NCBI RefSeq assembly: GCF_020177335.1
Contig: NZ_JAIVMG010000005.1
Coordinates: forward strand, 186,001-250,000
Reading direction: 5' to 3'
Length of the DNA: 64,000 nucleotides
From: Stappia indica
GTDB lineage: Bacteria; Pseudomonadota; Alphaproteobacteria; Rhizobiales; Stappiaceae
Shown: piece by piece, positions 20,401-56,405 of the stretch
How the letters are laid out: each line of letters opens with the position of its first letter
Position numbering within the stretch: position 1 is the stretch's first letter
Position numbers and translations under genes: made by a program
The notes under the pieces: generated by a model
Database searches by the model: none
What the model saw: the letters and a program-made list of their open reading frames with translations, nothing else
Told to the model about the DNA's origin: nothing

Positions 20401-20783
20401 TCGAGCGCGCGGGCGCGCAAGGCATGGACGGAGGCGTCCAGATCGCCGCCCTTGCCGTCGGAGGTCTCCTTCAGCAACCGAGCCCGCGCCTCGGGCTCCG
20501 CCGGCATCAGGCCGCTTTCGGTCAGAAGGTCAAGCAACCGGGCGCGGCGCTTCAGATAGCGGTCGCGGCGGCGGCGCATGCCGCGCGCCTCGCGCCGGGC
20601 CACCGCCAGCGAGGCCTTCGACTGCGGGTCACGGCCAGCCATTTCCGCCTGCGAGAAGATCCGCACGCCGATGTCGACAATGCGCCCCTCCTCCCGCGCG
20701 CCGGGCTCGCCCGTGGTTTCGATCAGGCACCAGCCCAGCGAGTTGGTTCCAAGGTCGAGGCCCAGAGTGGTAATTTTCGTCAT
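17466..20783 (-). pseudogene. cas9: cas9 (type II-C) interrupted by in-frame TAG at codon 350
   Basis: Cas9 is the RNA-guided DNA nuclease. ATG 20783 is used because the RuvC-I motif LGLDLGTNSLGW begins five residues later with Asp10, and a GGGGGATG-like ribosome site precedes it. The Arg-rich bridge helix (RREARGMRRRRDRYLKRRAR) follows. At 19736-19734 an amber TAG replaces codon 350; the same frame then continues as GLDGD to a TAA at 17466, giving 1105 positions, a normal II-C size. RuvC-II (IAIELGRELK, Glu about 540), HNH (DVDHILPYSK, His about 625) and RuvC-III (HHAIDA, about 780) are all intact. A GTG at 19718 could restart a C-terminal half. One base change explains the lesion. Confidence 0.93.
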
Positions 20784-35235: not shown

Positions 35236-36528
35236 TCACCGCCCGCCCTCCTCCTTCCAGCCAGAAGCGGCCCGGTCGATCAGGGCATCGACCTCCGCCT
35301 TCAGGGTTTCACCCGCTGCTGCCGCCGATTGCGCCTTTTGCGCCAGCCGGTCGGCCACGAGCGCGGTGCCCCGCACCTCTCCCCTTTCGGGATGCTGTCT
35401 CCATCCCCAGCAATCTCCCACCGGCACAAGCCCCGGGTCAGGCTGCGGAAAGCCTGCGTCCTCCGGCCAGAGCACCCCGCCGAAAGCTCCCGGCCAATTC
35501 GCCACCGTGCTGACCAGCGGCCGCTCGAACCGTTTGCGGGTCTTGAAATGGCCGAAGTCAACCACTTCCAGGCCGCTGCTGCGTCCCGACCGGGCGATCT
35601 GAATGTTCACCCCCTCCACCTCAATGGGAAACCGGCGTCCCTCGAAACCGGCGAGCAGCGCCTCCGGTACCCGCGCCGGCGCCTTCAGACCCGGGCAGTC
35701 GCTCAGCCAGACACCGTCGGGCTTCCTGTCGAGGCGGATCGGGTCATCCGCCGAGCTGGTCAGGCCGAAGCGGCGCAGCATCAGCTCCACGCTCAGACAA
35801 GCGCGCTGCTCCTCCGAGCGGGCAATCGGCAGATCCGAGACCCAGGAGCGCAGATGCCCACGCCGCACGCAGACCGCCGCCGGCAAGCGTGCGCCGGTTT
35901 CGTCCAGGATTGCAAAGCCAAGATCGATGATCGCGTAGATCGGCAGGCTGGCGCAGGGCGCCTCGCAGTGGTGGAACACCGCGCCGACAAGGCGCGACCA
36001 CAGATACTCCTCAAAGGCCTCGGACAGGCTCATCAACCCGTTGGAATAGGCGCGCCGCTGCGGCGTGCAGCCGGGCCCCACGCCGACACCCTTGATATCG
36101 AGCCACACCTTGTCCGGGCGTGGCTCGACCACGCTCGCACCCGCCAGATGTGGCAGGTTCGACCGCGCCCAGCCGGGCACCGGATCGTCGACAAGGCGAA
36201 AGCAGGCGCGGCCATAGCGCGGCGGCCGGAACCCCTCAAGCTTCCGGTCGCCGACGGGGATGGCAGCGTTCACCGTGTCATGGGAAAGCTGCTCTTGCGA
36301 GACGATCGCGGCTTCCTGCAACAGCCAAGCGCGCATTGCCGCGACAAAGCCGGCGCGGACCTTTGGCGTCAGCCTTGCCAAATCCACATCCAGATCCATG
36401 GCCAGAGCCGGCGCGTCGAACAGCACGACGCGCCCCGTTTCCACGGCCCGGAACCGCTCGCTCAAGGATGGCGCGCGGTCCGGCGAGGGGGGATCGGGAC
36501 TGGGCGAGGCAAGCGATGCGGTCGTCAA
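35236..36528 (-). CDS. Divergent SelO-like pseudokinase-fold protein (putative AMPylase)
   Basis: A 430-residue cytoplasmic protein I do not recognise as a named family. Its motif order parallels SelO, the protein AMP-transferase with a kinase fold: RYGRACF near 105, WLDIKGVGVG with Lys146 (SelO LKGAG), SLSEAFEEYLWSRL with Glu174 (SelO IREFL), AAVCVRRGHLRSW near 217, EGVNIQI with Asn308 (SelO MNTDN) and EVVDFGHF with Asp324 (SelO DYGPF). These would be the nucleotide and metal residues. It is shorter than typical SelO and much diverged. It overlaps the upstream repeat-protein gene by four bases and diverges from the carbamoyltransferase operon. The family call is by-eye inference. Confidence 0.5.
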   Translation of the reverse strand: MTTASLASPSPDPPSPDRAPSLSERFRAVETGRVVLFDAPALAMDLDVDLARLTPKVRAGFVAAMRAWLLQEAAIVSQEQLSHDTVNAAIPVGDRKLEGFRPPRYGRACFRLVDDPVPGWARSNLPHLAGASVVEPRPDKVWLDIKGVGVGPGCTPQRRAYSNGLMSLSEAFEEYLWSRLVGAVFHHCEAPCASLPIYAIIDLGFAILDETGARLPAAVCVRRGHLRSWVSDLPIARSEEQRACLSVELMLRRFGLTSSADDPIRLDRKPDGVWLSDCPGLKAPARVPEALLAGFEGRRFPIEVEGVNIQIARSGRSSGLEVVDFGHFKTRKRFERPLVSTVANWPGAFGGVLWPEDAGFPQPDPGLVPVGDCWGWRQHPERGEVRGTALVADRLAQKAQSAAAAGETLKAEVDALIDRAASGWKEEGGR

Positions 36529-37097
36529 CGGCCTTCGACGCTATCCGCCATCAGCTCGGCATAGCTCGACACCTGTTCAAGGGTCCTGGCCAGTTCGGCG
36601 CCCGCAGCGGGGAGCGTCTCGAACGACTGCGCCAGTGCGCCCAGCGCATGGGCCGCGCCCTCGATATTCTCGGCGATCTGCGGTGCCCCCTCAAGCGTTG
36701 GGGCCATCGGTTCGGCGGAAAGCGCAAGATCCCTCAGGGCATTGGCAATCGGGCCGGATTCAACCGAATGCAGGATGCCTTCCATATTCTCCATCAAGGC
36801 CTCCGCCGAACGGACAGCCCCGACGGAGGGCACCGGCCCGGTTTCCAACCCCGCCATCTGCCCCGGAGCGGTTTCAAGGCCCAGCGCCGCCGGATCGGTT
36901 TCCACACCAGTAAGCACAGCCGGCTCGGCTTCCAGATTGGCCATCCCGGGCATGGCCTCGATCCCGGCTGGCACCGATTTCGCGTTGGCTTCGACGCCGT
37001 TCGCAATGGCCGACAAAGCCTCGATCGCCTGCGGCAGCTTGTCGACCAGATCATCGGCCAACCGGCGGGCCCGCTCGTATTCGCTCGCTCCGGACAT
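36525..37097 (-). CDS. Small hypothetical protein with decapeptide repeats
   Basis: A 190-residue acidic protein without a recognised family. ATG 37097 is chosen because GGAGG lies five bases upstream; ATG 37100 is next to it. Residues 34-90 contain six copies of a roughly 10-residue unit [VIL]-E-[AT], often with Pro two residues on (GVEANAK, GIEAMP, LEAEP, GVETDP, LETAP, LETGP). Flanking parts are Ala/Glu/Leu-rich and probably helical. No signal peptide or cysteine is seen in the chosen product. It is coupled to the SelO-like gene by an ATGA overlap, so it may be that enzyme's substrate or partner. That is speculation. Confidence 0.6.
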   Translation of the reverse strand: MSGASEYERARRLADDLVDKLPQAIEALSAIANGVEANAKSVPAGIEAMPGMANLEAEPAVLTGVETDPAALGLETAPGQMAGLETGPVPSVGAVRSAEALMENMEGILHSVESGPIANALRDLALSAEPMAPTLEGAPQIAENIEGAAHALGALAQSFETLPAAGAELARTLEQVSSYAELMADSVEGR

Positions 37098-37246
37098 CAT
37101 TACCTCCACACACAACCAAAACGATACGCGCAATCAAGAAACAACTCACTCTGAAAGTCAATCTCATCTGCCCAAGGGGCAGCAGAGCGCCGGAAACGGA
37201 TCGCCCTAGCGTCTCACCAACTCAATCAAAAAGAGATTTTCCGAAC

Positions 37247-37306: not shown

Positions 37307-38992
37307 GTGGCGGCAGGACGGACGGGCTGGATTGCGGGGGTAAACCATGGTGCCCACGATGCGTCCGCAGTGCTGCTTCACGAGGGCCGGCTGGTCGTCT
37401 GGGTCGAGCAGGAACGGCTCTCCCGCACCAAACACGCGATCGACGAGCCGCCTGCGGAGGCGCTGCGGGCCTGTCTGGAGTTTGCCGGCATCGGCCCGGC
37501 GGATCTCGACTGCATTGCCCTAGGGTCGGATCACGACGCGCTCGCACGCTGGCTCTGCCTTGACGCAGAGCAAAGGCGAAAGGTGCTGCCCTTCGACCGG
37601 CCCGAGCGCATTCTCCCCGCCGATCTTCTTGACGGCGGCGCACCTCCTCCGATGGTCTCCGTCCGACATCATCTCGCCCATGCGGCCAGCGCCTTTTACC
37701 CGAGCGGCTTCGACCGGGCGGCGGGGCTGGTGATGGATGCGATGGGCGAAGACGCCTCGACCAGCCTTGCCGTCTGTCAGAACAAGGAGCTCTCGCTGCC
37801 CGTGTCCTACGGTGTCGAGGAGTCCCTCGGGTTCTTTTATGAAGCCGCCGCGCTCTATGCCGGCTTCTCCCGCCTCCAGACCGGCAAGCTGATGGGGCTT
37901 GCCTCCTACGGCACCCCCGGCCAGCCGATGCCGCTTGAGGCCGACCGCAACCAGAGCGGCCGGCTCTGGACCCTGCGGCACAATGCGCGAACGCCCGGGC
38001 GGACCGGCATCAACAACCGGGAAGAAGACCTTCTGGCGTTCTTCGGCGAGCAATCGTTTCCGCATTGCCGGCGGGAGACGGCAGAGGTAATGGCGTATCA
38101 GGACTTCGCCGCCTCCGCCCAGGCCGCCCTTGAAGACGCCATCCTGACGCTCGCCGAACGGGCTGTCAGCCTGGCGGGATCGCGCGATCTGACGCTGTCC
38201 GGCGGCGTGGCGCTGAATTGCTCGGCCAATGGCGTCCTGTCCCGCTCCGGCCTTTGCGACAGGCTCTTCGTGCAGCCGGCTTCAACAGATTCCGGCGTTG
38301 CCTATGGGGCAGCGCTGGTCAAGGCACGGGAGCTCTACGGCACCGCCTTCCAGCCCGGCGAGATGCGTGACGCCTATTGGGGGCTTGAGAGCACGCGCAC
38401 GGAAATCCGCGCCGCGCTCGACACCTCCGGCCTGCCCTACCGGGAACTGGCCGCACCCGCCCTGTGCGAGGCAGCCGCAGACGTAATCGCCCGCGATGGC
38501 ATCCTTGCTTGGCATCAGGGACGGGCGGAAATCGGCCCGCGTTCGCTCGGCGCACGCAGTCTTCTGGGCAACCCGGCGCGGCGCGCGACCCTTGCCCGCA
38601 TCAACCGGATCAAGCAGCGCGAGGTCTGGCGGCCGCTGGCGCCGAGCGTTCTGGACACGCACTTCAGCAGCTATTTCGACGGAACGCCCAACCCGTTCAT
38701 GATCGTGTCCGCGCTGGTCAGACCGGAGATGCGCCGTCGCATTCCCGCCGTCACCCATGTGGATGGCACCGCCCGGCCGCAGTTGGTCACGCGCAGCGCC
38801 AATCCCCGCTTTCACGACCTTCTGACCCATCTTCATCGCAAGACCGGCACGCCCATCGCGATCAACACCTCGCTCAACGGCCCGGAGGAGCCGATCTGCC
38901 TCCGTCCGGCGGAAACGATCCGCCTGTTTCAGTCCACCGAGATCGATGCGCTGGCGCTGGGAGATTTCCTTGTCGAGAAGCCCCATGGCTGA
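37307..38992 (+). CDS. Carbamoyltransferase 1 (NodU/TobZ family)
   Basis: A 561-residue O-carbamoyltransferase, which would make carbamoyl-adenylate from carbamoyl phosphate and ATP and pass the carbamoyl to a hydroxyl. GTG 37307 has GAGGA six bases upstream. The Kae1-like N domain shows GVNHGAHDASAVLL, VEQERLSRTKHA and the metal-binding HHLAHAASAFYPSG; GKLMGLASYG follows. The C-terminal domain has EIGPRSLGARSLLGNP, REVWRPLAPSVL, THVDGTARPQ and INTSLNGPEEPI. All expected motifs are intact. It is the first gene of an operon with two more family members, so each probably modifies a different hydroxyl or intermediate. Confidence 0.92.
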   Translation: MAAGRTGWIAGVNHGAHDASAVLLHEGRLVVWVEQERLSRTKHAIDEPPAEALRACLEFAGIGPADLDCIALGSDHDALARWLCLDAEQRRKVLPFDRPERILPADLLDGGAPPPMVSVRHHLAHAASAFYPSGFDRAAGLVMDAMGEDASTSLAVCQNKELSLPVSYGVEESLGFFYEAAALYAGFSRLQTGKLMGLASYGTPGQPMPLEADRNQSGRLWTLRHNARTPGRTGINNREEDLLAFFGEQSFPHCRRETAEVMAYQDFAASAQAALEDAILTLAERAVSLAGSRDLTLSGGVALNCSANGVLSRSGLCDRLFVQPASTDSGVAYGAALVKARELYGTAFQPGEMRDAYWGLESTRTEIRAALDTSGLPYRELAAPALCEAAADVIARDGILAWHQGRAEIGPRSLGARSLLGNPARRATLARINRIKQREVWRPLAPSVLDTHFSSYFDGTPNPFMIVSALVRPEMRRRIPAVTHVDGTARPQLVTRSANPRFHDLLTHLHRKTGTPIAINTSLNGPEEPICLRPAETIRLFQSTEIDALALGDFLVEKPHG

Positions 38993-40289
38993 AATCCGGT
39001 TTCCGTTCTGCCGCTCAAGAGCCGTCTTTCGGCGCGGCGCTGATCCGCGGCCGGGCAGACCCGCCATGCTCTACCTCACCAACAAGCTGCGGCGGTATCC
39101 GGATTCCGGCGGCGCCCGGCGGGAGCATGAGTTGCTGCGCCGCCTGACCGGCCGGTTCGACATCCACTATGTCGCCTTCACGCCGGACTTTCCGGAAGAG
39201 GCCGGCGCGGTCGAGGCGCCGCCGCTGGCCTTTGCCTCCACCACGGTGGTTGCCGCCGGCGATGCCGCCCCCCCTGCCGCCGGCCCTTCCCTGCCCGAGC
39301 GCATCAGTGCCCATGCAGCCCCGATCGGGCGGGAGGTGATCGCCTGGCTGGCCCGCAGCTTCGCCCCCGGCTTGGTGCATTGCGAAGGCTACTTCCTGAT
39401 GCAGCACCTTCCGGAGAACCTTGGCCTGCCCATTGTTCTGCAAGAGGAAAACATCGAGTTCGAGCTCGACCGCGACCGGACCCGGGTTCAGGGCGAGGAG
39501 CGGAGCGCCGCCGCGGTGCATTCCCTCGCGGAGGAGATCGAGGTTGCCTGCTGGCGCCGGGCCGCCGCGTGCATCGCGGTTACCCGCGAGGATGCGGATA
39601 TCCTGCGGGCACGGGCACCCAAAGTGCCGACGGTCTGTCTGGTCAATGGCGGTGAAGCCGCGCCGCAGCCGCTGGCGGCGCCGGAAAGCGGCCGGGCGCT
39701 CTATGTCGCCAATTTCAAATGGGCGCCCAGCCGCGATGCCTGCAGCTACCTGCTGCGGGACATCTGGCCCCGTGTCAGGCAGTTGAACCCGGAGGCCGAG
39801 CTTCTCCTTGCCGGGGCAGAGATGGACGACGGGCTGAGGCGCCAGGCCGCACTTGCCGAAGGGGTGGAGATCGAAAGCCCCTTCGACACGTTTTCCGAAG
39901 TGGCCGCCCGCTGCGCCCTCCTCGTCAGCCCGCTGCGGTTCGGCGGCGGCCACAAGATGAAGATCGTCGAAGCCCTGTGCGCCGGATTGCCGATCGTGGC
40001 AACGCCGCTTTCCCTGCGCGGCTTCGGCGAGGAGGTCCGGCGGACGGTGGCGGCGACCGCCAACCCCACCGCCTTTGCCGCCCTCACCGCCGCGCTTCTC
40101 ACCTCGCCCGAGGTTTGCCGCAACATGGCCCGCGCCTCCCTCCTTGCTGCCCGCGAACTGCCCGGCTGGGACCAGGTGACCGACGGGCTGGCGGAGGTCT
40201 GGCTTGGCGCGCTCACACCCGGCCTTGCGGCGGCCACGGCGGCTTCTTCTTCGCCCGCACCGCATCCGGCCGTGCAATCAGGGGACTGA
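38985..40289 (+). CDS. Glycosyltransferase family 4 (GT-B)
   Basis: A 434-residue (from 38985) nucleotide-sugar-dependent glycosyltransferase. ATG 38985 overlaps the previous stop by eight bases and follows GAGAAG; ATG 39066 is more typical of GT4 N termini (MLYLTNKLRRYPDSGGARRE). The C-terminal Rossmann half shows YVANFKWAPSRDA, LLLAGAEM, VSPLRFGGGHKMKIVEALCA and LPIVATPLSLRGF, where family-4 enzymes bind the donor. It should attach a sugar in the cytoplasm within the carbamoyltransferase cluster. The donor and acceptor are unknown. Confidence 0.85.
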   Translation: MAEIRFPFCRSRAVFRRGADPRPGRPAMLYLTNKLRRYPDSGGARREHELLRRLTGRFDIHYVAFTPDFPEEAGAVEAPPLAFASTTVVAAGDAAPPAAGPSLPERISAHAAPIGREVIAWLARSFAPGLVHCEGYFLMQHLPENLGLPIVLQEENIEFELDRDRTRVQGEERSAAAVHSLAEEIEVACWRRAAACIAVTREDADILRARAPKVPTVCLVNGGEAAPQPLAAPESGRALYVANFKWAPSRDACSYLLRDIWPRVRQLNPEAELLLAGAEMDDGLRRQAALAEGVEIESPFDTFSEVAARCALLVSPLRFGGGHKMKIVEALCAGLPIVATPLSLRGFGEEVRRTVAATANPTAFAALTAALLTSPEVCRNMARASLLAARELPGWDQVTDGLAEVWLGALTPGLAAATAASSSPAPHPAVQSGD

Positions 40290-40295
40290 CAGGCA

Positions 40296-41945
40296 ATGTA
40301 TATTCTCGGCCTCAATGCGCCTCCCCTTGGCTGGCACGACCCGAGCGCGGCGCTGATCGACGCCGACGGCACCGTGCTGGCGCTGGTAGAGGAAGAACGG
40401 GTCTCGCGCCGCAAGCACGGCCTGCACCAGTACCCCACAGGGGCCATCAAGGCCTGCCTCGACATCGCCGGGATCGGAGTGGAGGAGATCGCCACGGTCG
40501 CCATCGGCTGGGACCTGCCACGGCAATGGCCAAGGCGCGACCGGGATGCGCTCGATCCGCCGCTGCCCGGCCGGCTCTGGAGTTTCGACGACTGGGCCGC
40601 CTATCTCGATGCCTGCCTGGGCACGAGTTGCCGCAACCGGCCGGACCTCGTGTTCGTGCCGCATCACACCGCCCATGCGCTCAGCACGTTTCACGGCTCG
40701 GGTTGGCCCTCCGCCGCCATTCTCATCGTCGATGGCAATGGCGACGACGAGGCCATCTCGGTCTACCACGCCAAGCGCGGCGCCTTTCCGGTGCGCAAGG
40801 CCCGGCTGCCGTTCAGCCATTCCATCGGCACCATGTACGATACGGTGAGCAACTGGATCGGCCTCAGCTTCCTGGAGGCGGGCAAGACCATGGGACTTGC
40901 CGCCTATGGCCGCGGTACTGAGGCCGCCGGCGAGATGTTCCGCATCCGCGAGGACGGCATCGCCCCGCCCTTCGACCTGCCGCGCGACAGCGAATACGAT
41001 GCGGTGGTGGCCGAATGGAACCGGCATTTCGAACGTTCGGGCTTTCGCAAATCCTCCAGACCGGTGGCGGAGCTTCACACCTGCGCGGATGCGGTGTCGC
41101 TGTCATGGGCGGCGCAGTCCGGGCTTGAGACGCTGATGGGGCAACTGGTGGACTGGGCGCGCGAACTGACCGGGGAGACCCGCCTGTGCCTTGCCGGCGG
41201 GGTGGCGCTGAACTGTTCCGCCAACGGGCTGCTGCCCGAGCCGGTCTATGTGCCGCCGGTGCCGCATGACGCTGGTGTCGCCCTTGGCGCGGCGTGGTTC
41301 GTGGCCCCGCCAAGGATCGCCGCGCCGCTTTCTCCTTACCTTGGGCGCGGCGCCAGCGAGGCGGAGATCCACCGCGCGATCCGCGCCAGCGGCCTGTCAC
41401 GCACGCCGTTCGAGGCCGCACGCCTTGCCGGGGAGTTGGCGGAGGGGCGCATCGGCGCGCTCTTCACCGGTCGGTCCGAAGCCGGCCCCCGCGCGCTCTG
41501 CCACCGCTCGATCCTCGCCCGCCCCCATAGCGCCGAGGCGCGCGATACGGTCAACAGCCGCAAGTCCCGCGAATTGTGGCGGCCGCTCAGCCCGGTCGCC
41601 CTTGCCGGCCATTGCAACGCCTATTGGCAGGATGCGCCAAACCTTCATCGCTACATGGTGGGCGCGGCCACGGTCAGCGAAACCTGCCGGCAGGTGGCGC
41701 CGGGCGTCGTTCACGTGGATGGCACCGCGCGGCCGCAGCGGGTGGAGGACGACGGCGAACCGGTCGCCCGGATCCTGCGGGCGATGGAGGGCGCCGGCGC
41801 TCCCGGGCTTCTCATCAACACCTCGTTCAACCGGCGCGGCGAACCGATCGTCGACGATCCGCTGACAGCGATAGACGCCTTCCGCGCCATGCGGCTCGAT
41901 TTTCTGGTCTTCGACGACAAATGGGTGGTGCATGATCATGGATGA
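40296..41945 (+). CDS. Carbamoyltransferase 2 (NodU/TobZ family)
   Basis: A 549-residue O-carbamoyltransferase. The N-terminal part has GWHDPSAALIDADG, VEEERVSRRKHG, PHHTAHALSTFHGSG with the metal histidines, and GKTMGLAAYG. The C-terminal part has EAGPRALCHRSILARP, RELWRPLSPVAL, VHVDGTARPQRV and INTSFNRRGEPIVDDP. It differs clearly from the first copy, especially around WPRRDRDALDPPLPGRLW, so it is not a recent tandem duplicate. It lies six bases after the glycosyltransferase and overlaps the dioxygenase gene. Confidence 0.92.
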   Translation: MYILGLNAPPLGWHDPSAALIDADGTVLALVEEERVSRRKHGLHQYPTGAIKACLDIAGIGVEEIATVAIGWDLPRQWPRRDRDALDPPLPGRLWSFDDWAAYLDACLGTSCRNRPDLVFVPHHTAHALSTFHGSGWPSAAILIVDGNGDDEAISVYHAKRGAFPVRKARLPFSHSIGTMYDTVSNWIGLSFLEAGKTMGLAAYGRGTEAAGEMFRIREDGIAPPFDLPRDSEYDAVVAEWNRHFERSGFRKSSRPVAELHTCADAVSLSWAAQSGLETLMGQLVDWARELTGETRLCLAGGVALNCSANGLLPEPVYVPPVPHDAGVALGAAWFVAPPRIAAPLSPYLGRGASEAEIHRAIRASGLSRTPFEAARLAGELAEGRIGALFTGRSEAGPRALCHRSILARPHSAEARDTVNSRKSRELWRPLSPVALAGHCNAYWQDAPNLHRYMVGAATVSETCRQVAPGVVHVDGTARPQRVEDDGEPVARILRAMEGAGAPGLLINTSFNRRGEPIVDDPLTAIDAFRAMRLDFLVFDDKWVVHDHG

Positions 41946-42756
41946 GACAGTGAGCGATGCGCTCGGCCGCCTGGCAGACACGGGCTTCTGCGTCATCGAA
42001 GGAGCGTTGACGCCCGATACCATCGCCGTGCTCAAGGCAGAGATCGACGCCGTTGCCGCACGCGAGCGCGCGGAGGAAACCTGCTGGTACTCCCATGGCA
42101 ATCAACGCATTTTCATGCTCGCCAACAAGGGTAAGGCCTTTCTCGACCTGATCGAGCATCCGCTTGCCCTGGCGCTTGCCCGGGCCGTTCTGGATCCGGA
42201 CTGCCTGCTGTCGAGCATCACCGCCAACATCGCCAATCCGGGCAATACCTCCCAGCACCTCCACGCGGATCAGGGCTACATCCCCCTGCCCTGGCCACGG
42301 GCGGAAGTGGTCAACTTCATCTGGGTGGTCGACCCGTTTACCGAGCGGAACGGGGCAACCCGGATCATCCCGGGGTCTCACAAGTGCATGACACCGCCCG
42401 CCCCGGACGCCGAGACCCTGCCACTCTGCGCTCCGCAAGGCGCGCTTGTGTGCATGGATGGCCGGGTCTGGCACGGGACCGGCAGCAATCTCACGCAAGA
42501 CATGCCCCGCCGGGGCATCTTCGCCTATTACTGCCGGCCCTATATCCGCCAGCAGGAGAACTTCACCCGCTCGCTGCGTCGTGAGTTGCTCGCCGAGTTG
42601 TCCGACACCCAGCGGAGGCTGCTCGGCTTCGATATCTGGCAGGGGCTTGGCGCGGTCAATGGCCTGCCGACCGCCTGGATGGACGGACGCCGGCGCGTCG
42701 GCCCGACCGACGAGGACGGCCTGTTCGCTGCCGCCGCGAAGGACCCGACCCGGTGA
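41932..42756 (+). CDS. PhyH-family Fe(II)/2-oxoglutarate dioxygenase
   Basis: A 274-residue non-heme iron oxygenase. The facial triad is visible as His-x-Asp in QHLHADQGY near residue 105 and the distal His in RVWHGTGSN near 182; an Arg in PRRGIFAYY could bind 2-oxoglutarate. The NGATRIIPGSHK stretch before the distal His is typical of PhyH enzymes acting on small molecules. It likely hydroxylates an intermediate and may create a site for carbamoylation. ATG 41932 overlaps the upstream gene by 14 bases; ATG 41938 is possible. It overlaps the third carbamoyltransferase as GTGA. Confidence 0.88.
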   Translation: MIMDETVSDALGRLADTGFCVIEGALTPDTIAVLKAEIDAVAARERAEETCWYSHGNQRIFMLANKGKAFLDLIEHPLALALARAVLDPDCLLSSITANIANPGNTSQHLHADQGYIPLPWPRAEVVNFIWVVDPFTERNGATRIIPGSHKCMTPPAPDAETLPLCAPQGALVCMDGRVWHGTGSNLTQDMPRRGIFAYYCRPYIRQQENFTRSLRRELLAELSDTQRRLLGFDIWQGLGAVNGLPTAWMDGRRRVGPTDEDGLFAAAAKDPTR

Positions 42757-44735
42757 AGGCGATCGGCTTCAGCGGCGGACCGGACCACATCGCCTTTCCC
42801 GCCGTCGCGCCGGGCCTGTCACCGCTGTTCTTTCATGACGCGGCGGCGGCATTGGCGATTGATGGTGAGGTGCTGTTCGCAGTCGAGCAGGAGCGGCTGT
42901 CGCGACAAAAGCATACAAATGCCTTCCCGGTGGAGGCCTTGCGGGCCTGCACCGCCTTTGGCGGCCTCGCCCCTGGAGAGATCGACGCCTTCGCCTTCTT
43001 CTTCGAGGAGGCCTATTACGACCGGTCGCTGCAGGACGATTGCCGCAAGCTCGGCCTGCCCGCGCCGCCGCCGGTGCGCCAATTGCTGCGTGAGCGCCTG
43101 TCGGCGACCTTCGAGACGGAGATTGCCGACGAAAAGCTGTTTTTCATCAATCATCACAAGGCGCACGCCCTTTCCGCCTACCGCGCCTCGGGTCTCAATC
43201 ACGCGCTGGTGCTGGTGGTCGACGGCAATGGCGAGGATGTATCGTCCAGCCTCTTCGATGCCCGAGGGGGCGACTTGCGCCTCCTGACCAACCATGGTGC
43301 CGCCCATTCCCTGGGGCACTTCTTTCGTCTGGCGACAAAGCTGGGCGGGTTTCGCGATTTCGAGGAATACAAGTTCATGGGGCTCGCCCCCTATGGTGAT
43401 GCGGCGGCGCTGCAAACCGGGATGATGGCGCTGTTCACCCCGCTCGCCGACGGCGGCTATGAGCTGGACCTGGACGGGTTGACGGCACTGGCGGCTCGTC
43501 ATCGGGTCGGCGGCAAAAGTGCGGGAATGCCGGACCGGGTGACCGCCGATTTCGCTGCCGCCGCCCAGGCGCTGCTGGAACGGGCCGTCCAACATCTCCT
43601 GGCCCCCTGGGTGGGGCGAACCGGCGCCCGCGCGCTTTGCCTTGCCGGCGGCGTTGCCCAGAACTGTGTCATGAACGCGCGCCTTGCCCGCACCGAAGAC
43701 TTCGACACGGTGTTCGCCTACCCCGCCGCCTATGACGCGGGCGCGGCAATCGGCGCGGCACTGGCCGTCTCCCCTCCACCCCGCCCAGCGCCCTGCCCGA
43801 CAGCAACGGCAACCGGCGCCGCTTATTCTGCCTTTCTCGGACCGGAGCTGGAGCGCGATGCGGAGATCGCGGCGGAGCTGGAGCGGTTCGGTCTGCTGGT
43901 TGAAGCGCGCCCCATCGCGGCGCCCGAAGAACGGGCCGCCGAGTGCCTGGCGGAAGGAGAGATCATCGGCTTTGCCGCCGGACGTTCGGAGTTCGGCCCC
44001 CGCGCCCTCGGGGCACGGTCCATTCTCGCCGACCCCCGCCCCAAGGAGAACTGGCAGCGGATCAACCTCGCCATCAAGCAGCGGGAAAGCTTTCGCCCCT
44101 TTGCCCCGGCGGCGCTGGCCGAGGAGGCGACGGCGCTGTTCGACACGCCCGATGCGGCACTGAACCTCGACCACATGACCTTCGTCAGCCGCGTCCGCCC
44201 GGTTCACCAGGCCCAGCTCGGCGCAGTCACCCATGTGGATGGCAGCGCGCGGCTGCAGACCGTGGCGGCCTCCTCCAACCCCGCACTTTACAGCCTTATC
44301 AGCGCCTTCAAGGCGCGGACCGGCTGCCCGGTTCTGCTCAACACCTCCTTCAACAACAGTCACGAGCCCATCGTCCAGAGCGCCAGGGACGCACTGCGCA
44401 CCTTCCTCACCACCGAACTGGATTGCCTGTTCGTCGGCGGCTTCGAGGTCCGCAAGGCCGGCGCGCTGATCGACCATCTCCCGGCCCTGCGCTGGCGCCT
44501 CGATCCCTGGGTCGAGATCACAAAGGAAGACGCGGAGCAGGTGACCCTGACCCGGGCCGGGCGGTATCGCACCACCCTGCCCGCCCCCTTGTTCGCAATG
44601 CTGCTTGAGCCGGAGGAAAATGGCGCGCGCGGGTCGCAGTCCCCCAGACAAGCAGACCAGGACCAACACCAGATTGCCGACGCGGTCGCAACGCTCTGGC
44701 GGCAACGGTTCATCGACGTGCATCATGCGTGCTGA
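42753..44735 (+). CDS. Carbamoyltransferase 3 (NodU/TobZ family), long form
   Basis: A 660-residue O-carbamoyltransferase, about 100 residues longer than its two neighbours. GTG 42753 overlaps the dioxygenase stop. Motifs are HDAAAALAIDGEV, VEQERLSRQKHT, NHHKAHALSAYRASG, YKFMGLAPYGD, EFGPRALGARSILADP, RESFRPFAPAAL, THVDGSARLQ and LNTSFNNSHEPI. The last 100 residues (from about VGGFEVRKAGAL) form an extra tail without a recognised motif. Its SFRPFAP and GLAPYGD variants resemble the classic NodU/CmcH branch. The kinase gene overlaps its end by eleven bases. Confidence 0.92.
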   Translation: MKAIGFSGGPDHIAFPAVAPGLSPLFFHDAAAALAIDGEVLFAVEQERLSRQKHTNAFPVEALRACTAFGGLAPGEIDAFAFFFEEAYYDRSLQDDCRKLGLPAPPPVRQLLRERLSATFETEIADEKLFFINHHKAHALSAYRASGLNHALVLVVDGNGEDVSSSLFDARGGDLRLLTNHGAAHSLGHFFRLATKLGGFRDFEEYKFMGLAPYGDAAALQTGMMALFTPLADGGYELDLDGLTALAARHRVGGKSAGMPDRVTADFAAAAQALLERAVQHLLAPWVGRTGARALCLAGGVAQNCVMNARLARTEDFDTVFAYPAAYDAGAAIGAALAVSPPPRPAPCPTATATGAAYSAFLGPELERDAEIAAELERFGLLVEARPIAAPEERAAECLAEGEIIGFAAGRSEFGPRALGARSILADPRPKENWQRINLAIKQRESFRPFAPAALAEEATALFDTPDAALNLDHMTFVSRVRPVHQAQLGAVTHVDGSARLQTVAASSNPALYSLISAFKARTGCPVLLNTSFNNSHEPIVQSARDALRTFLTTELDCLFVGGFEVRKAGALIDHLPALRWRLDPWVEITKEDAEQVTLTRAGRYRTTLPAPLFAMLLEPEENGARGSQSPRQADQDQHQIADAVATLWRQRFIDVHHAC

Positions 44736-45657
44736 CGCGGCCGCCACGGAGGAGGTTCGGCGCTGGGCGACGAGACTTGTCGGCAGCGCCCCGGACCGGC
44801 TGACCCGCCTTGCCGGCGGTCAGGGCTCGGGATCGGATGTGTTCCGCGCCGACTGGACTGACCTGCCCGCGAAAGCCCGCCCCCTTGTCATCCGCCGCCA
44901 TGGCGACCGGCAATGGCTTGCGCGGGAACCCGACCTGCCAGAGCGGGAAGCCCGGATGCTGGGTTTCGCGGCGGCAAGCGGCCTGCCCGCACCGCGCCTT
45001 GTCGGGCAGATATCCGCCCCCTCGCCAATGCTCGCCATGACCGCCCTGCCCGGGCGGACGATCCCGCCGCGCCATCTCACGGCGGCGCATCTGGACTGCG
45101 CCGCGCGTGCTGCCCGGCACCTGCATCAAGTGCCGATCCCGCAGGAACAGCGGGCGACGCTCCCCCGCTATGCACCGCATTACATCACCGGAACGCTGCC
45201 CATCCTCGCCCCGGACTGGAGCCATCGGCCGGAGATCTGGCGCCGCGCCATCGAGCTCTACTTTCTCTGGCCAGAGGATTTGGAACACGGCAGCCACGGT
45301 CCCCATCTGGTGCACAGGGACTTTCACTTCGGCAACCTTCTGTTCGAGGGCGAGGCGCTTTGCGGCGTCGTCGACTGGGTCACCTCCTGTATCGGCGACC
45401 CGCAGGCCGACATCGGCCACATGCGCTGGAATCTGGTGCATGACCTCGGCTTTGACGCCGCCGACCGTTTCACCGCGCTTTATTGCGAAGGCAGCGGCGC
45501 CGCGCCCTACCACCGGAAGTGGGATCTTTATGCGCTCGTCGGCGCCCTGCCCGACCTGCCGCCGCTTCCCCTTGAAGTCCGCTCCCGACTGGAGGCCTTT
45601 CTGGCCGAAACCCTGAATGTGCTTGAAGGAACCACGCCATGGAGGGAGCAGCCATGA
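44725..45657 (+). CDS. Aminoglycoside phosphotransferase (APH)-family kinase
   Basis: A 310-residue small-molecule kinase of the APH/choline-kinase fold. ATG 44725 gives the usual length. The catalytic loop HRDFHFGNLLF holds Asp and Asn near residue 195, and the metal-binding Asp follows in CGVVDWVTSCIGDPQADIGH. The N-terminal glycine-rich stretch is LAGGQGSGSDVFRADW. Such enzymes phosphorylate hydroxyls of antibiotics or sugars; next to a phosphatase gene in a biosynthetic operon it could mask a product or activate an intermediate. The SurE-like gene begins inside its stop region (ATGA). Confidence 0.85.
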   Translation: MRADAAATEEVRRWATRLVGSAPDRLTRLAGGQGSGSDVFRADWTDLPAKARPLVIRRHGDRQWLAREPDLPEREARMLGFAAASGLPAPRLVGQISAPSPMLAMTALPGRTIPPRHLTAAHLDCAARAARHLHQVPIPQEQRATLPRYAPHYITGTLPILAPDWSHRPEIWRRAIELYFLWPEDLEHGSHGPHLVHRDFHFGNLLFEGEALCGVVDWVTSCIGDPQADIGHMRWNLVHDLGFDAADRFTALYCEGSGAAPYHRKWDLYALVGALPDLPPLPLEVRSRLEAFLAETLNVLEGTTPWREQP

Positions 45658-46391
45658 CGGGTGCCCCCATTGCCGTGACCTGCGACGACGGGGTCGACGC
45701 GCCGGGCTTCGCCGCACTGATCGGCGCTCTGCGCAAGGGAGGTTGGCCGCTCCGGGCCGGGGCGACGACCCGCTCCTGGCCGAGCAACGGCACGGCCACG
45801 GGCTTTGCCGCACCGGAAGACCTTGATCATGCACGCTTCGATCTGGCGGAGGTGGCCGGGATCAGGTGCCGGGTCCATGACGCCGCGCCCGCCTTTGTCG
45901 CCCGGTGCCTGCTTGCCGGCGCGAGCGAGGACGCCCCGGCACCGCGTCTCCTGATCGCCGGGGTCAATGCGGGACCGAACGTCGGCCGCGACCTCATTCA
46001 TTCGGGAACCTTCGGCGCGGCCCTCACCGCCATGTGGCTTGGCCTTCCGGCCATCGCCGTCAGTCTCGACGATGTTCATTCGGTCGATGAGCGCAACCCC
46101 GGACCGCTGCGATACGATCTGGCGGCCCGGGTCGCGGCGCTGGCGCTTGGCTCTCTGCTTGACGCACCAGCGCCACATCTTGTGAACCTCAACATTCCCA
46201 ATTCGATATCCTCGGACCGCGCCCGCTTTCATGCCGCGACGCCGCATCCGGGCGACGGATCGGGCCTCGACGGCGATATCGACGCCTTGAGGCGCGGTCT
46301 GGTGGCCGTCTCGGTCTTTCGCGGGCGCGACCTTTCCTGCGACGGGCAGGAGAGCCGCGATCTGGCGGCGGCCCTTGGCCGCTCCTGGTAG
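45654..46391 (+). CDS. Divergent SurE-like phosphatase
   Basis: A 245-residue protein related to SurE, a nucleotide and phosphate-ester phosphatase. ATG 45654 is preferred over 45639 because GGAGGGAG lies just before it and it overlaps the kinase stop as ATGA. The metal loop reads VTCDDGVDAPGF, with Cys where SurE has Asn but the Asp pair kept. The second loop VNAGPNVGRDLIHSGTFGAA is well conserved, while the usual RSG and TPTDC segments are altered. It is therefore a specialised relative, probably acting on a cluster intermediate. It is the last plus-strand gene of the cluster. Confidence 0.75.
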   Translation: MTGAPIAVTCDDGVDAPGFAALIGALRKGGWPLRAGATTRSWPSNGTATGFAAPEDLDHARFDLAEVAGIRCRVHDAAPAFVARCLLAGASEDAPAPRLLIAGVNAGPNVGRDLIHSGTFGAALTAMWLGLPAIAVSLDDVHSVDERNPGPLRYDLAARVAALALGSLLDAPAPHLVNLNIPNSISSDRARFHAATPHPGDGSGLDGDIDALRRGLVAVSVFRGRDLSCDGQESRDLAAALGRSW

Positions 46392-46396
46392 GGCGA

Positions 46397-47638
46397 TCAG
46401 GCCACGCAGGCGCTAGCCACCTCCGCGAAGGCGTTCCGCGCGGCGGCGACCGTCCCGGCGATATCCTCCTCGGTCATCGCCAGGCAGGTGAACCAGTGAT
46501 GGGCCGGATGCAGCAGGACGCCACGCTTCAGCATCGCCTTGCAGAAGGTCCGCATCGCCGCCTGATCGAGCGCGGGATCGCCGTGGTCGAAGCGCAGGAA
46601 GGGCATGACGGGCAATCCGGCCGGGCGGGCCGGCACACGGGCCTCGCTTGCGGCCCGGGCAAGACCATCGGACAGCGCCTGCCCCAGCGACCAGAGCCGC
46701 CGGTAGGGAGCGCCGCCCTCCAGCCGGTCGAGGGTCGCATGGGCTGCGGCGAAACCATCGGCGCCGCGAAAGAACACCGAGGAGGCGGACACATCCGCCA
46801 TGCCCTGCATGATCGCACGCCGACCGGCAACGGCGGAGATCGCGTGCCCGTTCGCCATCGCCTTGCTGAGGCAGACAAGATCGGCGGCAATGCCGAAATG
46901 GCTCTGCGCGCCCCCGGGGGCCAGCCGAAAGCCGGTGCGCACCTCGTCAAACACCAGCGGAATGCCGTGATGATCGCAGGCCGCCCGAACCGCCTCCAGA
47001 AACCCCGGTTCCGGCGGATCGATTTCAACCGGCATCATGATGACACAGGCGACCGCCTCGCCATCGCGCTGCAAGCGGGCCACCAAACCCTCGGCATCAT
47101 TGTAGGTGAACGCTGCGGTTCGCGCGCGCACCTCCGCCGGTATGCCGCCGGGACGCGGCGCGCACCAGTCATGCCAGCCATGATAGCCCCAGCGCAGCAC
47201 CAGATCGCGTTTCCGGTAGGCCCGGCATAGGCGCACGGCGAGCGAGGTGGCATCGGACCCGGTCTTCAGGAAGGCAGCCATCTCCGCCCCGGGAACCGTT
47301 CGCACCAGCCGTTCGGCCAGTGTCACCTGGCTCTCAAGATGCAGGGATGGCGCAACTCCATCGGCCAGCGCTGCCGTGACAGCGGCGGAAACCTGCGGAT
47401 CGGCATGGCCAAGCACCACCGAGCCGAAGCCTTGCAGGAAGTCGAGATAGCGGTTGCCGTCGACGTCCTCGACATGCGCGCCCGAGGCACGCCGGACGAA
47501 GACCGGATAGGCATCGCCCGGACCATACCCGGCGGACAGCACGCCTGCTCGGCCCTGAAACGACGCATCCACGGCCTGGGCCCGGTCGAGCCATGCCATT
47601 CCGACCGCCAGGGATTGCGACCTCTCCCCCACCTCCAT
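46397..47638 (-). CDS. PLP-dependent class III aminotransferase, GSA-aminomutase-like
   Basis: A 413-residue PLP enzyme. ATG 47638 is chosen because GGAGG precedes it by five bases; a TTG at 47677 gives a longer form. The N-terminal part reads GPGDAYPVFVRRASGAHVED and GNRYLDFLQGFG, the cofactor pocket FDEVRTGFRL, and the PLP lysine lies in CLSKAMANGHAISA. It converges on the SurE-like gene with a five-base gap. It lies 75 bases past the last gene of the minus-strand catabolic operon, so it could belong to either system. The amine donor and substrate are unknown. Confidence 0.85.
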   Translation of the reverse strand: MEVGERSQSLAVGMAWLDRAQAVDASFQGRAGVLSAGYGPGDAYPVFVRRASGAHVEDVDGNRYLDFLQGFGSVVLGHADPQVSAAVTAALADGVAPSLHLESQVTLAERLVRTVPGAEMAAFLKTGSDATSLAVRLCRAYRKRDLVLRWGYHGWHDWCAPRPGGIPAEVRARTAAFTYNDAEGLVARLQRDGEAVACVIMMPVEIDPPEPGFLEAVRAACDHHGIPLVFDEVRTGFRLAPGGAQSHFGIAADLVCLSKAMANGHAISAVAGRRAIMQGMADVSASSVFFRGADGFAAAHATLDRLEGGAPYRRLWSLGQALSDGLARAASEARVPARPAGLPVMPFLRFDHGDPALDQAAMRTFCKAMLKRGVLLHPAHHWFTCLAMTEEDIAGTVAAARNAFAEVASACVA

Positions 47639-47713
47639 CGACGCCTCCACGCGCAAGGCGCGCCCGCGAGCGAGCAAATCGCAGGACGCACAATCACAAG
47701 ATGTGAAGACACC

Positions 47714-48211
47714 TTAGCGGCGGTCCCGGGGTTTGTCTTCTCCCGACTGCACGGAACGGGCGCGAATGGCCACGCCGATGCTGCCCTCGGCGAGAACCGT
47801 GCCGGTGGCGTCCAGCACCTCGACCTGTGCCACCATACGCCGTCCGCTCCGGTGGCTGACATGACCAGTGGCGGTGAAGGGACCGCGGTCGAGCCTGCCC
47901 GGCGCAAGGTAGCGTACGGCAAGATCCGAGGTCAGGATGGTTTCGTGCGCGCCGATCAGGGTCATCGCCGCACCGCCGCCGCCCATGTCGATCAGCGAGG
48001 CGGTCACGCCGCCATGGACGAGGCCGGCAAGATTGGCGTGGCCGGCGTCGATCTCGCAGCGCAGCATCATCCGGCCGGTTGAGACCTCTGTCGGTTCGAC
48101 CCGCAGCCGCTCGAAGAACCCGCCCGGCTGGCGCTGTTCAAGCCACCGCTGCGCCAGTTCGTAGCCGGTCTTGTCCGGGTCGAGCGAGAAGTCCACGGCC
48201 CGCGCCGTCAT
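47714..48211 (-). CDS. PaaI-type hotdog-fold thioesterase
   Basis: A 165-residue acyl-CoA thioesterase-like protein. The hotdog helix region reads NLAGLVHGGVTASLIDMGGG, with the usual HGG and acidic residue, and the outer strands include LAVRYLAPGRLDRGPF. It probably releases CoA from dead-end acyl-CoAs formed by the operon's ligases and thiolases. Its ATG overlaps the upstream flavoprotein stop by four bases. Confidence 0.85.
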   Translation of the reverse strand: MTARAVDFSLDPDKTGYELAQRWLEQRQPGGFFERLRVEPTEVSTGRMMLRCEIDAGHANLAGLVHGGVTASLIDMGGGGAAMTLIGAHETILTSDLAVRYLAPGRLDRGPFTATGHVSHRSGRRMVAQVEVLDATGTVLAEGSIGVAIRARSVQSGEDKPRDRR

Positions 48212-49137
48212 GCGGGGACCTTCGCCGAAAGCTGCGCGATCGCCGCGCGGTATTCGGCCTCCAGCGTGGCAACGATCTCGGACACCGGCTCGATGGCGCG
48301 GCTCTTCCCGACCCCCTGGCCCGCCGCCCAGATATCGCGCCAGCGCTTGGCCACATCGCCGGAGTATTCCCGCTTGGCCGGGGCGCCCGGGCTCGCCGGG
48401 TCATAGCCCGCCGCCTCCAGGCTGGCGTTCAGCCAGGACGCAGGTGTGCCGGTCACCGCCGACGTGACGGTCAGATCGTCGATCCCCGCATCGAGCACCA
48501 TCGCCTTGTAGGCCGGGGCGGCGCGGCTTTCGGTGGCGGGCAGGAAGCGGGTGCCCATGTAGACCAGATCGGCACCGGCGGCGATGGCGCCGGCAATTCC
48601 CGCGCCATCGGAGATCCCGCCGCCCACCGCGATCATCCCGCCAAAGAAACTGCGCACGGCGGAGATGAAGGCGAAGGGCGAAAGATGCCCGGTGTGACCG
48701 CCGGCACCGGTGCTGATGCAGGCCATGCCATCCACCCCCGCCTCGGCGGCCTTGCGCGCCAGCTTGAGGTTGACCACATCGGCGAACACCTTGCCGCCAT
48801 AGCCCTTGATCGTTTCCATCACCGGCTTCGGGCTGCCCAGTGCGGTGATGACCAGCGGCGGCTTGTATTCCGCCACCAGCGCCAGATCGTCGGCCAGCCG
48901 GGTATTGCTGGAATGGGTGATGAGATTGGCCGCCCAGGGCCCGTCACCCGGCTCAAGCGCCTGGGTGATCGTGCCCATCCATTCATCAAGCTCGGCGGGG
49001 GTGCGCAGGTTGGTGGTGGGAAAGGCACCGCCGATCCCGGCCTTGGCCGCCGCGATCACCAGCTCGGGCCCGGAGACAAGGAACATCGGCGCGCAGATCA
49101 CCGGCAGGCGCATGGAGGCGAGAAGCGGCTCGGTCAT
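48208..49137 (-). CDS. Nitronate monooxygenase-family FMN protein
   Basis: A 309-residue TIM-barrel flavoprotein of the NMO/2-nitropropane dioxygenase group. ATG 49137 shares its first base with the last base of the acyl-CoA ligase stop. Typical segments are PVICAPMFLVSGPELVIAAA, CISTGAGGHTGHLSP with the His of the FMN site, GGMIAVGGGISDGAG and YMGTRFLPATES. Relatives oxidise alkyl nitronates, but many members in CoA-linked operons have unknown substrates, so the role here is open. Confidence 0.85.
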   Translation of the reverse strand: MTEPLLASMRLPVICAPMFLVSGPELVIAAAKAGIGGAFPTTNLRTPAELDEWMGTITQALEPGDGPWAANLITHSSNTRLADDLALVAEYKPPLVITALGSPKPVMETIKGYGGKVFADVVNLKLARKAAEAGVDGMACISTGAGGHTGHLSPFAFISAVRSFFGGMIAVGGGISDGAGIAGAIAAGADLVYMGTRFLPATESRAAPAYKAMVLDAGIDDLTVTSAVTGTPASWLNASLEAAGYDPASPGAPAKREYSGDVAKRWRDIWAAGQGVGKSRAIEPVSEIVATLEAEYRAAIAQLSAKVPA

Positions 49138-50834
49138 CAGGCGAACTCCGCGCGCAGCTCGCGCTTGAGCAGCTTGCCGACCGGGTTGCGCGGCAGTTGC
49201 TCCTTCTCTTCCAGCCGCTCGATCTGCTTGAAGATGGCGACGTGCTTCTCCTCGCGCAGGAACCGGTTGAGCTCGTCCTTGCCGGCGCTCTGTCCCGCCT
49301 TGAACACGACAAAGGCGCAAAGCCGCTCGCCCAGCTTGTCGTCCGGCTCTCCGACAATGGCCACATCCGCCACCGCCGGATGGGCCAGCAGATAGCCCTC
49401 GATCTCCTCCGACGAAATGTTCTGCCCGCCGCGAATGATGATGTCCTTGCAGCGCCCGACGAAGCGGTAGAACTGATCCTTGTCGCCGGCGATCTCGAAC
49501 ATATCGCCGGTGCGGAACCAGCCATCGGCATCGAACACGCGGGCGGTCGCCTCCGGGTTCTCCCAGTAACCGGCGAAAACCGACGGTCCCTTCATGCGCA
49601 GCTCCCCAGGGATGCCGGGTTCGCTCACGGGCTGCTCGGTCGCCGGGTCGACCAGTCGGGTCTCGCACCGGTCATGCAGCACCGCCTTCCAGGTAAAGCG
49701 CGGATCGAAGCGGGGGAAGAACGCCGCGCGCTGCGCCGGATCGGGAAAGTCGTGATAGGTGCTGGGAAAGGCCGCGCCCTCGTTGGAGCCGAAATAGTTG
49801 GCGATCTCGATGCCGAACTTTTCCTTGAAGCCCCGAACCATCCATTCCGACAAGGGCGCGGATCCGGAGCCGATGTTGCGCAAGTGGCTGAAATCGACCC
49901 CGTCCACCAGCGCCTCGTTCTGAAGCAGCATGTTGAGGATCGCCGGCGGCGCGACGGTATAGGCCACCTTCTCCTCCTGGATCTGCCGCAGAAACAGCCC
50001 CAGATCGAACGGGTGATGCTGGACGAGCGTGCCACTGGTCATCAGCCAGGCGACAAAGCCGGTGGAGATTCCGGCCATGTTGACCATCGGGAAAGGGTTC
50101 AGCATGCGGTCGCCGGTTTCCAGCTCGGCGGCATCGGCCACCACCTCGCCCATCACCAGCCACTCATTGTGGTTGCGCGGCACGCCCTTGGGCCGCGCCT
50201 CGGTGCCGGACGTCCAGCAGATGGTGACGATATCATCGGCAGTGATCGCGGCGGCCTCTATGGCCGCTTTCGCCGCCTGCCGCATCGCCGGAGTGACCCC
50301 GGTCAGCGCCGCATCGAGCCCGACGCTGCCCGCGACGGTCTCGCCGAGCGAGAACACCACCTCAAGGCTCGCCACCTCCTCCTTGACCTGCAAGGCGGCG
50401 GCAGTGCCGGCATAGCCGGCGATCCGCGCCGCGCTGACCATGCCCTTGGCCCGAATGCTTGCGGCGATGAAGGCAAGCTCGTTTTCCCGGTACTGCACCG
50501 GTGTCGGGCTGACGATGACGCCAAGCCGGCAGCACGCAAGGTAGATCGCCGGCAAGTCGACCAGATTGGGCAGTTGCACCACCAGAGCGTCGTCCTTGCC
50601 GATGCCATGGGCGGTCAGCACCGCCGCATAGCGCTCGGCCAGATCGTCAAGCGCTTCCCAGCTCAGGCGCTGCGGCGCCCGGCCGATCAGATCCTCGCAA
50701 TTGAGCGGATCGACGGCCGCCTCGGCACCCGGGTCACGGGCGAGATTGCGGGCAAAAAGGTCCTGAAGGCGCGTGTCTCCCCACCAGCCCCTGGCCTTGT
50801 AGCTCGCGATCTTGTCCTGCGGTATGATGATCAT
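49137..50834 (-). CDS. AMP-dependent acyl-CoA ligase 1
   Basis: A 565-residue adenylate-forming enzyme. AGGGAGG precedes ATG 50834 by nine bases. The ATP loop reads CWTSGTEARPKGVPRNHN near residue 210, slightly off the usual TSGTTGxPKG. The hinge region is WFRTGDMFEIAGD with FVGRCKDIIIRGGQNISSEE, and the catalytic Lys lies in NPVGKLLKREL near the C terminus. It should activate a carboxylic acid as CoA thioester. The acid may come from the PaaN-type dehydrogenase nearby. Confidence 0.9.
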   Translation of the reverse strand: MIIIPQDKIASYKARGWWGDTRLQDLFARNLARDPGAEAAVDPLNCEDLIGRAPQRLSWEALDDLAERYAAVLTAHGIGKDDALVVQLPNLVDLPAIYLACCRLGVIVSPTPVQYRENELAFIAASIRAKGMVSAARIAGYAGTAAALQVKEEVASLEVVFSLGETVAGSVGLDAALTGVTPAMRQAAKAAIEAAAITADDIVTICWTSGTEARPKGVPRNHNEWLVMGEVVADAAELETGDRMLNPFPMVNMAGISTGFVAWLMTSGTLVQHHPFDLGLFLRQIQEEKVAYTVAPPAILNMLLQNEALVDGVDFSHLRNIGSGSAPLSEWMVRGFKEKFGIEIANYFGSNEGAAFPSTYHDFPDPAQRAAFFPRFDPRFTWKAVLHDRCETRLVDPATEQPVSEPGIPGELRMKGPSVFAGYWENPEATARVFDADGWFRTGDMFEIAGDKDQFYRFVGRCKDIIIRGGQNISSEEIEGYLLAHPAVADVAIVGEPDDKLGERLCAFVVFKAGQSAGKDELNRFLREEKHVAIFKQIERLEEKEQLPRNPVGKLLKRELRAEFA

Positions 50835-50857
50835 TGCGCGCGTTTCCTCCCTGAAAT

Positions 50858-56404: not shown

Positions 56405-56405
56405 G

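Follow-up and report, generated by a model that had tools for sequence, protein, structure and literature searches.

A conserved gene cluster with three carbamoyltransferases in Stappia indica and a gammaproteobacterium, possibly for a multiply carbamoylated aminocyclitol

Several antibiotics are carbamoylated late in their biosynthesis, which tunes their activity and normally takes a single carbamoyltransferase (CT); the pathways of TobZ (tobramycin/nebramycin), GdmN and NovN use one CT each. The streptidine and bluensidine routes (streptomycin, bluensomycin) combine an inositol-phosphate synthase, an aminotransferase, a kinase, an amidinotransferase, a phosphatase and a carbamoyl group, with a cyclitol aminotransferase of the StsC/DegT family, and the saxitoxin (sxt) gene set includes an amidinotransferase, a carbamoyltransferase and a PhyH enzyme, together with SxtA, which is larger than 800 residues. 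The present analysis concerns a stretch of 64,000 nucleotides from Stappia indica (positions 186001-250000 of contig 5; genome of 4.66 Mb), referred to below as the window, in which seven plus-strand genes at 37307-46391 encode three class III O-carbamoyltransferases (CT1, CT2 and CT3) and four other enzymes. Together with a convergent aminotransferase gene, they recur in Stappia taiwanensis and in UBA7310, a metagenome-assembled genome (MAG) of a gammaproteobacterium, and the eight genes are very probably a co-functioning biosynthetic cluster.

CT1-3 belong to the same family as TobZ, GdmN and NovN, with the same two-domain core, metal ligands and catalytic base, but three orthologous types stand here in one cluster, and the operon showed no gene for an aminoglycoside core, a coumarin or a polyketide. 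The pathway logic of streptidine and bluensidine resembles that of the cluster, which differs in its SurE-like phosphatase, its three CTs, its proteobacterial hosts and the lack of a recognised inositol dehydrogenase; its aminotransferase is a class III, HemL-like enzyme instead of a StsC/DegT-type one, and an amidinotransferase and a clustered Ino1 (inositol-phosphate synthase) were present only in the UBA7310 locus (L041). With saxitoxin, L041 shares the amidinotransferase (SxtG 1.7e-75), carbamoyltransferase and PhyH kinds, whereas it has an inositol synthase, a kinase, a SurE-like enzyme and a GT4-type glycosyltransferase instead of the rest; no predicted gene above 800 residues, a length that the polyketide-like starter enzyme SxtA exceeds, was found in L041, L056 or L057, whose neighbours were partly scanned by family. 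The nearest cluster met in the literature is the PNP-1/GVG type of Pantoea and Pseudomonas, for which the available part of the source describes a NodU/CmcH carbamoyltransferase with aminotransferase-family genes and, in the Pseudomonas versions, an inosamine-phosphate amidinotransferase, one CT and a formyltransferase being named (PMC4010436). A kinase, a phosphatase and a dioxygenase, all present here, go unmentioned in the main text of that paper. The saskemycin cluster was also considered as a relative and rejected, as it has a carbamoyltransferase and an amidinotransferase but, according to the accessible portion of PMC12637814, a different product.

The seven genes follow each other in the order listed in Table 1, with junctions of -8, +6, -14, -4, -11 and -4 bases. 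This arrangement, including its overlaps and tiny gaps, had been proposed in a sequence-only reading of the window and was confirmed by the refined coordinates and by Pfam, where all seven proteins were over a cut-off. None of the seven was named by NCBIfam at its own cut-offs (NodU, 109-151 vs 1000 bits; SurE, 81 vs 135), and because of these scores the proteins are regarded as divergent family members. The class III aminotransferase gene, 5 bases downstream of the SurE-like gene on the opposite strand, is the eighth member of the conserved set; it had been missed in the sequence-only reading, as had a fourth CT 24 kb downstream on the same contig, just outside the window. Ten proteins were scanned by family, namely the seven operon products, the aminotransferase and the products of two upstream genes, and neither Pfam nor NCBIfam revealed a polyketide, nonribosomal peptide synthetase, terpene or sugar-core family in them, in line with the sequence-only reading.

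Table 1. Genes of the cluster, with positions in the window
Product	Position	Strand	Family evidence
CT1, class III O-carbamoyltransferase, 561 residues, TobZ-like length	37307-38992	+	Pfam 4.5e-58 and 3.3e-43
GT4-type glycosyltransferase	38985-40289 (alternative start 39066)	+	Pfam Glyco_trans_1_4 6.9e-17
CT2, class III O-carbamoyltransferase, 549 residues, TobZ-like length	40296-41945	+	Pfam 3.1e-45
PhyH-family Fe(II)/2-oxoglutarate dioxygenase	41932-42756	+	Pfam PhyH 2.7e-27
CT3, class III O-carbamoyltransferase, 660 residues, longer C-terminus	42753-44735	+	Pfam 3.1e-63
APH-fold small-molecule kinase	44725-45657	+	Pfam APH 1.9e-23
SurE-like phosphatase	45654-46391 (alternative start 45639)	+	Pfam SurE 2.3e-23
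Class III pyridoxal phosphate aminotransferase, convergent, HemL/GntE/aminoglycoside C-6' aminotransferase-like	46397-47677	-	Aminotran_3 4.7e-45

A search of 84,980 species genomes for exact peptide patterns taken from the PhyH protein gave 13 stretches; four of these encode relatives, and two of the four are the cluster. The S. taiwanensis locus (L040) carries the seven genes and the aminotransferase in the same order, at 89-96% identity. L041 holds all eight families inside 12.4 kb, with identities to the window proteins of 51% for CT1, 38% for GT4, 56% for PhyH, 39% for CT3, 30% for the kinase, 42% for SurE, 47% for the aminotransferase and 55% for CT2. There, Ino1, CT1, GT4, PhyH, CT3, kinase and phosphatase form a single run (gaps of +6, -1, -4, -4, -1 and -4), the aminotransferase and the amidinotransferase are on the opposite strand, and CT2 lies just past them. 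As CT2 is placed differently, it is the set, beyond one operon string, that has been kept together. The remaining two relatives, L042 and L043 of Streptomyces, share only PhyH among the cluster proteins. As a control, ten L041 cluster proteins and eight window proteins were run by tblastn against 23 loci; more than one family was matched only in L040 and L041, whereas in 20 loci the matches were confined to CTs or to PhyH, and in one there were none. Thus, the genes, which the sequence-only reading had taken for a candidate biosynthetic cluster, were found co-located and not scattered, and the recurrence of all eight families in another proteobacterial class indicates an association beyond chance.

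The mutual identity of CT1-3 was 32-37%, and both Carbam_trans_N and Carbam_trans_C (Kae1-like N-terminal and YrdC-like C-terminal domains) were over the cut-off in each of them. The closest solved relative was TobZ for CT1 (1.3e-98) and CT2 (6.8e-72), and NovN (1.1e-124) and GdmN (3.2e-123) for CT3. A C-terminal dimerisation extension of about 100 residues marks the homodimeric GdmN/NovN subclade; CT3 continues for some 90 residues past its YrdC-like domain, similar in length to that extension, and CT1 and CT2 stop at the end of the domain. Active-site residues were kept in CT1 (base H17, HHLAH at 121, D144, D328), CT2 (base H14, HHTAH at 123, D146, D325) and CT3 (base H28, HHKAH at 134, D157, D328), and the metal ligands and the catalytic histidine were found by motif in CT1-3 of each of the three carriers, nine proteins in all. 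In GdmN, as described in the available part of PMC9633730, iron is bound by H133, H137, D156 and D333, H27 may be the base, and the metal ligands are highly conserved across class III carbamoyltransferases. As the equivalent residues are present, CT1, CT2 and CT3 are all probably active.

In a maximum-likelihood tree of 35 CTs, the Stappia and UBA7310 proteins were paired for CT1 (100/100), CT2 (100/97) and CT3 (100/98). The tree comprised CT1-3 from the window and from UBA7310, the fourth CT of the window genome, one Streptomyces plasmid CT and the CTs of 27 loci from a CT3 search of relatives (L012-L037 and L039). A length/score filter removed L038, which has an interrupted frame, and a fifth CT of the window genome (L004); copies from S. 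taiwanensis were not included. The program warned of long branches, including those of UBA7310 CT3 and the Streptomyces CT, and of possibly false joins. In blast comparisons, the like-numbered CT was the best cross-genome match for all three pairs, with identities of 51% for CT1, 55% for CT2 and 39-42% for CT3, although for CT3 the identity margin is narrow (39% vs 32-37%). Each of the three is thus conserved as a separate ortholog, and a recent tandem duplication is ruled out by the mutual identity and the tree, as had been supposed when the three enzymes were described as diverged. That three paralogues are retained one to one in both classes speaks against CT1-3 being interchangeable.

Motifs are also retained in PhyH, the kinase, the phosphatase and the aminotransferase. 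The GT4 protein shows 38% identity to the product of L041 8664-9896, and no solved relative was found for it at 1e-10 in a profile search. In PhyH, HxD (H111, D113) and H181 are conserved, with 52-56% identity to the UBA7310 ortholog. The kinase keeps HRD....N and D217 at 30-32% identity to its UBA7310 counterpart, its solved relatives being weak (best 6e-5), and the phosphatase keeps the DD, GVN and SGT motifs at 41-42%. As the latter scored 81.4 bits against a cut-off of 135.1 for the NCBIfam equivalog TIGR00087, its sequence places it in a divergent subgroup with an intact metal motif, outside the 5'/3'-nucleotidase equivalog. The kinase and phosphatase genes overlap by 4 bases (ATGA in Stappia), the same as in UBA7310. 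The closest solved relatives of the aminotransferase were HemL (5.8e-53) and the C-6' aminotransferase (9.6e-50); K272 in SKAMANG is conserved, and its homologue at L041 14758-15978, also convergent, is 46-47% identical.

In the sampled searches, the cluster was carried by two of the 14 genomes of the genus and, outside it, only by UBA7310. CT3 had a counterpart in one of the 13 other genomes of the genus, at 91%; CTs are common, and of the 101 relatives searched, a set that counts the window genome itself, 34 matched CT3 at an E-value of 0.001. A PhyH profile was searched in 293 relatives of UBA7310 (threshold 1e-30), in 385 genomes of the window's class and 398 of its phylum (1e-45 each) and in 369 genomes from the class of UBA7310 (1e-50), the sets overlapping and at most the best 6-8 candidates per genome being scored. 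The window genome (582 bits) and UBA7310 (526 bits) were outliers, the next best matches being of 207 and 182 bits, and the set was not found in the neighbourhoods of these two. None of five neighbourhoods of PhyH matches (two in G530 and one each in G365, G516 and G484) matched a second cluster protein by tblastn, and gene-by-gene blastp of the G516 stretch gave one weak 48-bit APH-fold match; of the 24 matching relatives of UBA7310, 22, at 150 bits or less, lie outside this check, as does the G620 match. CT3-based matches in G083 and G095 were rejected as homologous clusters, being flanked by genes that are nod-type by eye, with the set absent there.

In the Streptomyces family, a CT1 profile at 1e-110 matched four of 394 genomes, with three candidates scored per genome; the best match had 381 bits, on a scale not strictly comparable to the 1138 bits of the CT1 self-match by blastp, and the four loci matched CTs only when tblastn was run with the cluster proteins. 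CT2 matched 308 plasmid records, three of which were inspected: two Streptomyces CTs are downstream of very long genes that are polyketide synthase-like by eye, and a Mycetohabitans CT lies just before an adenylation-domain gene. No CT2 match was found in the viral contigs scanned, and there was no near DNA match in plasmids. Streptomyces L042 (4963-15348) and L043 (6235-15760) have in common a small cluster around PhyH, with second dioxygenase-like, FAD oxidoreductase-like, GT4-like and methyltransferase-like genes by eye, which is possibly for another uncharacterised product.

Two flanking genes of the cluster had close orthologs (at least 90%) only in the same two of 14 genomes of the genus; therefore, the region is variable as a whole and island borders cannot be drawn. 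No description of the cluster was found among the literature matches listed, in which subscription journals are thinly covered, nor any paper on a Stappia carbamoyltransferase or on 'three carbamoyltransferases'; NodU, inositol, PhyH and related terms jointly gave only papers that were unrelated by title and the start of the abstract. The enzyme kinds are known, and their combination looks new.

Sugar, cyclitol, nucleoside and amino acid had all been listed as possible scaffolds, and the cyclitol is now favoured among them because L041 carries Ino1 and an amidinotransferase with the eight families. The Ino1 homologue, 6 bases upstream of CT1 and the only one found in the UBA7310 genome, matched the mycothiol-type Ino1 model at 1.2e-108, with 363 bits against a cut-off of 638, and Pfam at 1.9e-31; the amidinotransferase adjoins the aminotransferase. 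The product would be a multiply O-carbamoylated aminocyclitol, probably glycosylated, and guanidinylated in the gammaproteobacterium, the best-supported reading of the product class, to which we give a probability of roughly 0.45.

From the observed gene content, conservation, orthology and intact active-site motifs, we infer a scaffold, step order, position specificity and masking as follows. Synthesis would start from inositol phosphate, supplied by the in-cluster Ino1 in UBA7310 and possibly by an Ino1 elsewhere in the genome in Stappia, which would be dephosphorylated; a ring carbon would then be oxidised, possibly by the PhyH enzyme, an amine inserted by the class III aminotransferase and, in the gammaproteobacterium only, converted to a guanidine by the amidinotransferase. 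A sugar would be added by GT4, and CT1, CT2 and CT3 would each carbamoylate a different hydroxyl from carbamoyl phosphate and ATP via carbamoyl-AMP. The kinase may phosphorylate an intermediate and the SurE-like phosphatase strip this phosphate, most likely a mask protecting the producer. A kinase serving only amidino transfer would not be needed in Stappia, and the protective role is favoured because the pair is kept there, where no amidinotransferase was found. A bolder proposal, an as yet undescribed proteobacterial class of tri-O-carbamoylated (guanidino)aminocyclitol glycosides with three position-specific CTs, a translationally coupled kinase/SurE mask and a guanidine in gammaproteobacteria only, seems rather unlikely at present.

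Several observations weigh against the aminocyclitol. The L041 amidinotransferase is nearer GATM (3e-78), HsvA (1.7e-76) and SxtG than the inosamine-phosphate enzyme (8.1e-63), and none was found in either Stappia genome at an E-value of 0.001. Each Stappia genome has one Ino1, none in the cluster; that of the window genome lies on a different contig, with a phosphoenolpyruvate (PEP) mutase gene some 5 kb away and a thiamine pyrophosphate (TPP)-enzyme gene nearer to it, a setting that makes its link to the cluster tentative, and the Ino1 beside CT1 in one MAG could serve a neighbouring function by chance. An inositol dehydrogenase was not recognised in the window locus or in L041, two loci whose neighbours were partly scanned by family, nor was an exporter, regulator or resistance gene recognised inside the operon. 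The closest solved structures to PhyH are fungal meroterpenoid enzymes (PrhA 2e-17), with kanamycin B dioxygenase at 6e-7. In addition, CT2-like and PhyH-like proteins each occur in Streptomyces outside such a cluster, so that neither alone implies a cyclitol.

A tentative but serious alternative is that the carbamoylated small molecule has a different core, whether amino sugar, oligosaccharide, nucleoside or amino acid, and that Ino1 is only an add-on in the gammaproteobacterium: GT4, the aminotransferase and the CTs would equally fit an amino-sugar oligosaccharide, and Stappia has neither an in-cluster Ino1 nor a detected amidinotransferase, points that the tight linkage of the sole UBA7310 Ino1 to CT1 opposes. 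Cell-surface or lipo-oligosaccharides are also substrates of NodU-family enzymes, and with a GT4 in the operon the CTs might decorate a surface polysaccharide or lipopolysaccharide; this appears improbable, as the eight genes include no polymerase, flippase or sugar-nucleotide gene and the dioxygenase, kinase, phosphatase and aminotransferase belong to small-molecule enzyme families.

A cluster for a Nod-factor-like lipochitooligosaccharide (NodU/NolO), already disfavoured, would agree with the position of CT3 in the tree as sister to the CTs of L012 and L013, two loci that are nod-type by eye, and with NodU being the best NCBIfam model, yet at scores far below its cut-off; as the ten proteins scanned by family include no NodA, NodB or NodC, it is very improbable. 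Equally hard to credit is a chance neighbourhood of unrelated genes: the carriers are only three and CTs are common, but eight families are found together in another class at 30-56% identity, with one-to-one CT orthology.

Other features were noted. The region around the Ino1 of the window genome (L058; G000 contig 4, 60001-78000) encodes a TPP enzyme and a PEP mutase fused to a nucleotidyltransferase; genes resembling those of an aminotransferase and a CDP-alcohol transferase were recognised there by eye, and the region may be an operon for an inositol or aminoethylphosphonate lipid. Just past the window end (L007:5280-15871, about 69280-79871 in window numbering), a second cluster, different from the main one, contains the fourth CT, a WelO5-like oxygenase (below cut-off), a SnoaL-like protein, a class I/II aminotransferase, an AurF-type N-oxygenase, two methyltransferases, a major facilitator superfamily transporter and an ATP-grasp ligase, and looks like one for a separate amino-acid-derived natural product. 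Upstream of CT1, overlapping minus-strand genes at 35236-36528 and 36525-37133 matched nothing in Pfam or NCBIfam at 0.001, and the larger is present in only two of the 14 genomes of the genus. Beside the aminotransferase, minus-strand genes at 47714-57851, including a thioesterase and a large aldehyde dehydrogenase and, by eye, acyl-CoA ligases, thiolase-like genes and a nitronate-monooxygenase-like gene, look like a catabolic CoA pathway. Farther away (16112-20783, minus strand), Cas1, Cas2 and Cas9 are encoded, the latter with one in-frame stop codon near 19735; the two resulting pieces are matched by models of RuvC/HNH and of the Cas9 alpha-helical lobe.

Lacking a recognised polyketide or peptide synthase gene, the cluster may be passed over by common cluster finders. 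The comparison with UBA7310 yields a concrete, testable hypothesis for the scaffold. The maintenance of three orthologous CT types across two bacterial classes points to a product with several carbamates, and these three types would supply a natural set of position-specific enzymes.

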